The notes beneath the pieces are model-generated. The model made no database searches. It saw only the letters and a program-made list of their open reading frames with translations, and had not been told where the DNA came from. Shown here piece after piece: positions 25,502 to 28,272 of a stretch of 36,797 nt of DNA (positions are counted from its first letter, which is position 1; every line of letters begins with the position of its first letter). A program made the position numbers and the translations under genes. The stretch lies in contig JAIBDW010000011.1 in NCBI GenBank assembly GCA_024686035.1, positions 1 to 36,797 of the forward strand, written 5' to 3'. The DNA is from Oceanospirillaceae bacterium. Lineage in GTDB: Bacteria; Pseudomonadota; Gammaproteobacteria; Pseudomonadales; Balneatricaceae.

Positions 25502-26208
25502 TGGATTTCTCGATTGTATGGCAGTATTTTCCGATGTTATTGGAAGGAGCATGGGTCACATTATGGATCACAGTGGTTAGCTTGCTGATCGGTTTGGGTC
25601 TAGCCATCCCCTTGTCTGTTGCTCGATTATCTAAAAATCGTTTTGTTTCATCCCCGGCCTACCTGTTTGTTTTGTACTTTCGCGGGACACCTTTGTTAGT
25701 GCAAATATTTTTGATCTATTATGGCAGTGGTCAATTTAGGCATGAACTCTCAGACCTAGGATTATGGGGTTTTTTCCGTGATCCATGGTTCTGTGGCATT
25801 TTAGCTTTAGTGTTAAACACTACAGCTTATTCTGCTGAAATTTTTCGTGGTGCAATTAGCGCTGTTCCTCGTAACGACATCGAAGCCGGTCGAGCGTGTG
25901 GTATGTCAGGATTATTATTATTTCGGCGTATTACTATGCCAAAGGCATTTCGTATCGGTTTGCCAGCTTACGGTAATGAAGTCATTTTTTTATTACAGGC
26001 AACATCACTAGTATCTACTATTACCATTTTGGACTTAACCGGCATCTCTCGCCAGCTAATCTCTAAAACCTTTGCTGTATATGAGTTTTATCTCACTGCA
26101 GCAGCTATGTATTTAGTAATGACGTATCTACTGGTTTACATTTTTCGTGTGTGGGAGAAGCGGATGAATGGGCACTTGAAAGAACGACTCACCAGTAAAA
26201 CTAGCTAA
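25501..26208 (+). CDS. aotM: Basic amino acid ABC transporter permease (AotM/HisM type)
   Basis: This second 235-residue permease has LLEGAWVTLWITVVSLLIG at the start, YLFVLYFRGTPLLVQIFLIYYG and the EAA loop IEAGRACGMSGLLLFRRITMPKAFR. It forms the transmembrane channel with the preceding protein. It begins inside the stop codon of aotQ, implying translational coupling. No aotO-like hydrolase gene follows, unlike the Pseudomonas aot operon. Confidence 0.92.
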   Translation: MDFSIVWQYFPMLLEGAWVTLWITVVSLLIGLGLAIPLSVARLSKNRFVSSPAYLFVLYFRGTPLLVQIFLIYYGSGQFRHELSDLGLWGFFRDPWFCGILALVLNTTAYSAEIFRGAISAVPRNDIEAGRACGMSGLLLFRRITMPKAFRIGLPAYGNEVIFLLQATSLVSTITILDLTGISRQLISKTFAVYEFYLTAAAMYLVMTYLLVYIFRVWEKRMNGHLKERLTSKTS

Positions 26209-26234
26209 TCAACAACCCAGGGTTTGGTTGCATT

Positions 26235-26265
26235 TATCTCCTTAGGCTAATCGCTTAAGGAGATA
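26235..26265. terminator. Perfect 10-bp hairpin between aotM and the HTH-receiver gene
   Basis: TATCTCCTTA (26235-26244) and TAAGGAGATA (26256-26265) pair perfectly around an 11-nt loop. It lies between convergent genes, where a bidirectional terminator is expected, but no T run follows on either strand, so termination efficiency is doubtful. The TAAGGAG arm resembles an anti-Shine-Dalgarno partner, but no gene starts there. Confidence 0.45.
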
Positions 26266-26287
26266 GAGCTTCATAGATGTCATGGGG

Positions 26288-26881
26288 CTATTTAGCAATC
26301 GCTTGCAACACGAGTGCTTTCAGTTCATCCACAGGGATCGGCTTATGAAGTACTGGCACACTTTTAGGCAATTGATTTGCCGTCACTTCAGCTTCGCCTA
26401 ATGCGGTGACTACGATGGGTGTGAGGTGGTCATATTGAGGATCACTGTGTAAACGCTCAATGATGGCGTAGCCTTCAAGTTGCGGCATGTGTAGGTTAGT
26501 GATCACAACCGTGGGTTTAAATTCGCCAATTTTAACAAGCGCGTCAACGCCATTTGATGCGGTTTTTATTTGCAGGCTAGGGAACCAATTACTCACTAGC
26601 ATTTGATACAAGAGTAAGGTGTCTTGATCTTCATCTACAATCAGCACCACTTTCGAATTTTTTCTTTGTGTATTGTGTAAGGGTGTTTGCTTCTCGCGTT
26701 TTTCATCAAGTAACTGCTGCACTGACTCTACACTGATGCGTCGGTGACCCCCAGCTGTTTTCCAAGCTTGTAGCGCACCACGCTCCACCCAAAGCTGCAC
26801 AGAGCGAACTGACACGTTAAGTAATGTTGCCGCTTGGCGAGTAGTGAGCTCCGTCATGGTAGTGAGGTCTATACGTTTCAT
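26288..26881 (-). CDS. Excisionase/MerR-type HTH fused to an atypical receiver domain
   Basis: The protein has 197 residues. Residues 10-60 form a BldC/excisionase-type winged helix-turn-helix (TTRQAATLLNVSVRSVQLWVERG, then the wing AWKTAGGHRRIS). Residues 77-197 form a CheY-like receiver. The acidic pair (D83, E84/D85), the switch Thr (T159) and the Lys (K180 in LHKP) are present. The phospho-acceptor position, expected as Asp in 'D-x-x-MP', is Asn: VVITNLHMP, N129, codon AAC at 26497-26495. Ordinary Asp-based phosphorylation is therefore unlikely unless the Asn is deamidated. The HTH-before-receiver order is the reverse of standard response regulators. No histidine kinase is nearby and it appears to be a single-gene unit. 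DNA-binding function likely; input signal unknown. Confidence 0.85.
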   Translation of the reverse strand: MKRIDLTTMTELTTRQAATLLNVSVRSVQLWVERGALQAWKTAGGHRRISVESVQQLLDEKREKQTPLHNTQRKNSKVVLIVDEDQDTLLLYQMLVSNWFPSLQIKTASNGVDALVKIGEFKPTVVITNLHMPQLEGYAIIERLHSDPQYDHLTPIVVTALGEAEVTANQLPKSVPVLHKPIPVDELKALVLQAIAK

Positions 26882-26918: not shown

Positions 26919-26963
26919 ATAAAGTAGATATATCAAATTTACCATTTACTAATGTATAAAGTA
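26919..26963. repeat. AT-rich direct repeats upstream of the HTH-receiver gene
   Basis: ATAAAGTA occurs at 26919-26926 and again at 26956-26963 in a very AT-rich spacer between pyrC' and the divergently placed HTH-receiver gene start. TTTATAGCATAAA at 26911-26923 is also a short dyad. These could be promoter elements or an autoregulatory site; AT-rich sequence makes chance repeats common. Confidence 0.25.
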
Positions 26964-26991: not shown

Positions 26992-28272
26992 TTATAAAGC
27001 GTAACTAATCAAACCTTGCTTGATGGTCAGTTTCACTCGTGCTTTAAGCGTTTGGCTAGCTAGTGCCTGATTGGTGCCCTGGCTTATCTTTGTCACTTCA
27101 TTAAGTATCCAGTGATGGTTTGGGTCGATCAAGGTCAGATTGGCGCTGTTGCCAACGGCTAAGCTTGAAGCTTTATGTTTGGCAATGCTTGCGCTGTTAG
27201 TACTGAGTGCTTGGATAGCATGCATCCAGGTAAGCTCCCCTGCATCGACTAAGATTTGCATAAGGGGCACGAGCATGTCATACACAGCCATGCCTGAAGC
27301 AGTGGCGGCAAAAGGTGCGCACTTAGCCGCAGATTCATGAGGTTGGTGGGCAGAGCAAATAGCATCTATGGTGCCATCTTTAATACCAGCAACTAATGCT
27401 TTACGATCTAGCTCTTCACGTAAGGGTGGCTGCACGTGGTACTGGCTGCAGTAGCCCTCTATCTTCGCGTCAGTGAAGCAAAGGTGAGCAATGCCTGCAT
27501 CGGCAGTCACTTTTATACCTTGTGCTTTTGCCTGGCGAATGAGCGCCACGCCCTTTGCGCTAGACAGTTGGTTAAAATGGCCCTCTACCCCCGTATGCTG
27601 CATAAGCTCTAAATGGCGACTAATAGAAAGGGTTTCAGCGATGACCGGAATGCCGTCTAAACCCATCCGTGTCGCGGTTGGGCCAGCGTGCATATGCCCG
27701 CTACCCAGTTTCTCATCTTGAGCTTGCACTAATACTTTTAAGCCAAAGGTGGCGGCGTACTCATAACAACGAAGCAGCACCGTATTGTCTGATATATCGT
27801 AGCCTGCGTTGCTAAAGCCCATACAACCAGCACCAGATAATGACTCCATATTACTTAACGCAGCGCCTTTTAAACCTTTGGTGAGGGCTGCCACAGGGAG
27901 TATGTCACAAAATCCTGCGCCCTCAACTTTACTTTTGATCAGGCTAATGACTGAGCTTGAATCACTGCATGGCTGGGTGTCTGGGCTAGGGCATAAATGA
28001 GTAAAACCAGCGCTGGCAGCGGCATGAGTTTCACTGGCTATGGTGCCTTTTTGAATTTGATTTAAATCTCTTAGGCAGGTATTTAGGTCTACAAAACTAG
28101 GGCTTAAAATCATCCCCTTAGCATCAACCTGAATATCAACTTGGGTGTCGATGGAGGTATTGCTAAGATCGCCGATGGTGTCTATAACCCCGTCTTTTAT
28201 GAGTACATCTGCCACACGGTCAAGGGCTTGGTTAGGATCTAAAAGGCGTGCGCCACGAATCATTATCTTCAT
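26992..28272 (-). CDS. pyrX: Non-catalytic dihydroorotase-like protein PyrC' (PyrX)
   Basis: This 426-residue amidohydrolase-fold protein is related to type-I dihydroorotase but has lost the active site. The metal-binding HxH of DLHxHLREP reads DLNTCLRDL (N64, C66), a later metal His is Gln (HFNQLSS), and the catalytic Asp of 'DHAPH' is Ala (SAHQPH, A308). In Pseudomonas the equivalent PyrC' is not a dihydroorotase but is needed to assemble the active aspartate transcarbamoylase dodecamer with PyrB. The gene overlaps the pyrB stop by four bases (ATGA), matching that partnership. A functional pyrC should exist elsewhere. It is the last gene of the metK-to-pyr run. Confidence 0.92.

Follow-up and report, generated by a model that had tools for sequence, protein, structure and literature searches.

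The 36,797-nucleotide stretch of DNA analysed here (the window), from a marine Oceanospirillaceae bacterium, encodes a regulator that seems to be in transition from control by phosphate to independence of it. It joins an N-terminal winged HTH to a CheY-like receiver and has Asn at the position of the phospho-acceptor Asp. The reading we favour, at a probability of roughly 60%, is that this response regulator was orphaned by deletion of the kinase from its operon, that its phosphorylation pocket is eroding, and that it has been kept as a phosphorylation-independent, probably autoregulatory DNA-binding protein.

An HTH-receiver protein with Asn at the acceptor position

The gene lies on the minus strand, from an ATG at 26881 to 26288 (197 codons; protein P0001, 197 aa), and is present in a single copy in the genome, a MAG of 159 contigs. 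Pfam places HTH_17 (PF12728) at residues 12-61 (3.5e-11; 43.6 bits against a cut-off of 27) and Response_reg (PF00072) at residues 79-191 (8.4e-12; 45.7 bits, cut-off 30.2). The protein also passes TIGR01764 'excise' (42.9 versus 28.8 bits), and falls below the curated cut-offs of the BldC family NF033787 (35.9 versus 77 bits) and of MerR PF00376 (27.4 versus 28.2 bits). An AlphaFold model computed with 46 homologues (mean pLDDT 86.7) consists of a winged HTH, a linker of low confidence at residues 66-73 and a (beta-alpha)5 receiver. Together, these assign the excisionase-like winged HTH to residues of about 10-62 (26696-26854), the linker to residues 63-76 (26654-26695) and the receiver to residues 77-195 (26297-26653). 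The best Foldseek matches of the model are receivers, including 3cnb and 3lte; among the structure matches listed, only the receiver was matched and none had the two-domain arrangement. The GGHR motif in the wing of the HTH does not vary in the 46 homologues.

The reversed order of HTH and receiver, pointed out in the original prediction, was borne out by the Pfam matches, and all homologues retrieved have it too, which makes it a feature of the family rather than a peculiarity of this locus. The predicted Asn was likewise confirmed by alignment with the homologues: codon 129 (26495-26497, GTT on the plus strand) reads AAC. Of the remaining pocket residues, all of which had been described as kept, Thr159 (26402-26407 together with Ala160 at T+1) and Lys180 (26342-26344, located from the homologue alignment) are indeed present, but the acidic pair (26630-26635) is Asp83-Glu84 instead of Asp-Asp, kept only in that both residues are acidic. 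All kinase-bearing congeners have Asp at DD2 and Gly at T+1. Among the homologues read, this species shares Glu at DD2 with just two others, both of them kinase-less congeners. In place of the canonical response-regulator set DD, D, T and K, the protein thus has D83-E84, N129, T159 and K180. It shares with aspartate-less receivers (ALR/PsR) a PF00072 receiver and, in the alignment of this one MAG's copy, the absence of the acceptor Asp. The proposal that the receiver fold is preserved while canonical phosphorylation is lost is supported by Pfam, the model, Foldseek and N129.

Asn129 is found in this species only

We tabulated residue 129 across the HTH-REC homologues and found 107 Asp and 1 Asn, with Asp in 13 congeneric species and in 94 more distant HTH-receiver homologues. 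A first alignment of 87 homologous frames, including the copy studied here, gave the same picture (86 Asp; Asn in this copy only). Within the genus, the gene is present in 14 of 15 genomes, the one without it being 72% complete, and Asp129 is present in all 13 other congeners, including a 92%-identical sister with the codon GAT. Outside the genus but within the family, a further 19 homologues all have Asp at both position 129 and DD2. Because every other homologue has Asp, Asn129 is not a family trait, and we rejected the reading of an unusual family. Asp in close relatives is the outcome that the original prediction had itself set against its reading, and the evidence gives no support to the idea that the family as a whole consists of settled phosphorylation-independent or ligand-gated proteins. 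A search of the viral collection and phage records found no relatives.

The kinase and HD-GYP genes have been lost from the locus

The HTH-receiver gene is flanked by a hisM-like gene that ends at 26208 and a pyrC-like gene that ends at 26992. No kinase adjoins it, as had been stated from the sequence; moreover, related species do have one, which this genome has lost. The 79-bp gap between the hisM-like gene and the HTH-receiver stop (26209-26287) is the site at which nine congeners have a histidine kinase gene and eight of these also a degenerate HD-GYP gene.

There is evidence in the nine congeners for a same-strand NtrB-like kinase gene 3' of the HTH-receiver gene. The encoded histidine kinase is soluble and some 350 aa long, matches HATPase_c at 8e-23 and HisKA weakly, and has the histidine motif 'GICHEVNQPLNAMRLR'. 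The kinase, 46-100% identical to the probe, occupies the 3' side in six congeners; in G007 it is on a separate contig, with a kinase start also seen behind the HTH-receiver gene, and in G006 and G014 it is present as contig-edge pieces (in G014 the kinase start only, at the contig end). In G006 and G007 an assembly break at this point leaves the kinase and HD-GYP genes wholly or partly on a different contig. The HD-GYP-like partner (L005:7665-8582, L008:4663-5598 and L009:4274-5167) keeps the HHExWDGSGYP motif, and its HD_5 match begins at profile position 60. The HD dyad seems to be lost, so the partner may be non-catalytic.

Neither a close kinase homologue (best matches 23-34% identity) nor an intact HD-GYP homologue was found in this genome or in four other species (G003, G008, G011 and G012). 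In one of these, G008, a C-terminal remnant of the degenerate HD-GYP gene sits right behind the HTH-receiver stop (L214:5620-5800; G008:C119:13635-13771), which shows that genes were deleted here and not acquired late elsewhere. On a species tree built from 14 flanking proteins, the kinase occurs on both sides of the root and its pattern takes three changes by parsimony (the starred branches force two), so that its absence from this genome and the four other species amounts to three losses. A canonical two-component system would have its kinase in the operon or a clearly assignable partner; here the kinase is absent at the locus and has no close homologue in the genome.

A kinase relocated within the same genome was also considered and rejected, since no close one was found and most of the kinases that were found lie near a regulator of their own. 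Across the genome there are 13 matches to HATPase_c and 11 to the receiver; gyrase/HSP90/MutL-type proteins, as judged by length, were left out of the HATPase_c kinases. A NahK/ErcS-like kinase adjoins an ErdR-like regulator, a PhoR-like kinase a PhoB-like regulator, and a CpxA-like kinase a regulator; NtrB goes with NtrC by position, sortase-system-like kinases have their own regulators, and there is a further kinase-regulator pair (C76). There are also two short kinase fragments, including a UhpB-like one, and none of the genome's other kinases stands out as a partner for the HTH-receiver gene. A GacA-like regulator (C155) likewise has no kinase beside it.

In several congeners a FAD/2Fe-2S oxidoreductase trio (Pyr_redox_2, Fer2_4, DAO) lies between the locus and hisM (L003:6604-9417, L005:8570-11374). 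It is missing from L006 and from 26209-26287 of the window, so this gap has lost other genes too. On the other side, the PyrC-like amidohydrolase (26992-28272), beside pyrB, seems to be without the usual HxH metal motif and has DLNTCLRD instead, so it looks like an inactive dihydroorotase partner of aspartate transcarbamoylase.

Pocket residues may change mainly in kinase-less species

Sixty-one receiver columns are invariant in the nine kinase-bearing species, and 12 of them differ in at least one kinase-less species. Many of the 12 ring the phosphorylation pocket: DD2 (D to E in three species), DD+1, D, D+2, D+7, T+1 and T+2. In true receivers, D+2, T+1 and T+2 matter for phosphorylation chemistry or access (PMC12632262). 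By parsimony, a pocket set of 12 positions has 7 changes on kinase-less and 3 on kinase-bearing branches, compared with 48 and 113 in the rest of the receiver, and the kinase-less branches contribute under a quarter of the tree (0.40 out of 1.79). The enrichment has a Fisher p of 0.013, is equalled by random column sets in 0.6% of draws, and gives a median p of 0.014 over 200 bootstrap trees (5-95% range 0.0003-0.17); as the counts are small and the positions were chosen with the alignment already in view, the test is suggestive only. It suggests that pocket residues constant in kinase-bearing species change mainly in kinase-less ones.

Five pocket changes, D84E, Q131H, D136E, G160A and M161L, are common to this species and its kinase-less sister. 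The dN/dS of the HTH-receiver gene between the two is 0.053, against 0.028-0.109 for the flanking genes, so the gene is still under purifying selection. The 16 amino acid differences from the sister, polarised by majority rule, fall 7 on this branch (including N129) and 6 on the sister's, with 3 undecided; the two branches are alike.

How the regulator may have become independent of phosphorylation

The ancestral unit in the genus would have been the HTH-REC gene followed by the soluble NtrB-like kinase and the degenerate HD-GYP protein, in the order seen in congeners. In the kinase-bearing congeners, the downstream kinase most likely phosphorylates Asp129 and thereby controls DNA binding by the HTH, a step suggested by the operon order and by betaproteobacterial relatives with adjacent PAS/GAF kinases. 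Several lineages would then have lost the kinase and, along with it, the HD-GYP protein. After this trimming the regulator may still have been useful unphosphorylated, perhaps as an autoregulator, leaving the pocket free from selection; Asp129 would have been lost in this lineage (D129N) after the pocket changes shared with the sister. DNA binding through the HTH has most likely been retained, probably at a conserved candidate AT-rich repeat in the promoter of the gene itself, and the receiver would serve as a static module for structure or dimerisation in place of a switch. Against this reading, four other kinase-less species keep Asp129. A species can thus lose the kinase and retain the site, and those four may receive phosphate from another donor. 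Whether the series within the genus (kinase-paired, kinase-less with Asp, kinase-less with Asn) records the origin of a pseudo-receiver by kinase deletion, pocket erosion and acceptor loss, while the regulator was retained as a constitutive autoregulator, seems to us an even call.

The Asn depends on one G-to-A change in a single fragmented MAG, Asp is present in all 13 congeners, and the four kinase-less species above are among those that keep it. All of this would fit an error in the assembly or consensus, or a minor strain polymorphism, in which case the species truly has Asp129 and a non-cognate kinase or acetyl phosphate phosphorylates the regulator. We regard this as rather unlikely: the reading frame and the neighbouring genes are intact, and D84E, Q131H, G160A and M161L recur in the independent sister assembly, so the pocket was already altered and the Asn fits the trend. 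An early pseudogene, in which the orphan has become dispensable and N129 would be the earliest damage to be fixed, would agree with the deletion of the kinase and HD-GYP genes and with the position of the gene outside any evident pathway. This is improbable given the intact ORF, the low dN/dS (0.053), the roughly equal numbers of polarised changes on the sister branches, the invariant HTH wing, and the presence of the gene in every genome of the genus except the 72% complete one.

It is more doubtful still that N129 is adaptive, locking the active state or admitting another signal such as a ligand, redox or Asn deamidation. Asn followed by Gly is prone to deamidation; the residue after N129 is Leu, not Gly, and the change is seen in one species only. 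Nothing that we found pointed positively to a ligand or redox site, and the activation by ligand or by deamidation raised in the original prediction gained no positive evidence. Such a role does have precedents, since Asn is, after Glu, the second commonest substitute in Asp-less receivers (16%), RitR with Asn is functional, and reversion of Asn to Asp by deamidation has been reported (PMC4395418).

Relation to known systems

The ALR/PsR regulators RitR (Asn53), HP1043 and ChxR are similar in joining a PF00072 receiver without the phospho-Asp to a DNA-binding domain and in being orphans, and RitR also has Asn at the acceptor position. The present protein differs from them in its N-terminal HTH_17 output, in having lost the Asp in one species only, and in that congeners still show the ancestral kinase beside the gene. 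Several percent of receiver domains are pseudo-receivers; those studied are typically orphans (18 of 20), and their activation is described as unknown (PMC12632262). Here, close relatives still have the kinase beside the regulator, which makes the sequence of events legible and lets ancestral and derived forms be compared head to head at the bench. We found nothing direct in the literature on an HTH-first MerR-type regulator or on kinase loss leading to a pseudo-receiver.

The HTH-first architecture is shared with MerR-family HTH-receiver regulators, namely the one of Colwellia psychrerythraea, whose 'merR' DNA-binding response regulator contributed the receiver in 3cnb, one of the top fold matches here, and betaproteobacterial HTH_17-REC copies (36-45% identity). 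All of those read keep the Asp, and many of the HTH_17-REC examples scanned with Pfam have an adjacent kinase or hybrid kinase, of the GAF/PAS type in betaproteobacteria.

A conserved element upstream of the gene

The upstream alignment contains a conserved element, TGGTAAATTTGATA, at 26931-26944 on the minus strand. It is a TGGTA-N4-TGATA direct repeat and a candidate promoter or operator, and the repeat or a variant of it is present in the leader of all 14 congeneric copies. The exact TGGTAAWTTTGATA occurs once in this genome, at 26931-26944. Allowing one mismatch, the window has 6 matches, which is near chance (mean 2.4; 5 of 100 shuffles had as many), so we claim no regulon. BldC, which has a winged HTH of the same superfamily, is a protein of 68 residues without a receiver, and the HTH-receiver protein scores below the cut-off of the BldC family model as given above. 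BldC sites are AT-rich direct repeats, and the form of the candidate element is compatible with them (PMC5859096). Immediately downstream of the TGGTA-N4-TGATA element, this species and its sister have roughly 12 additional bases.
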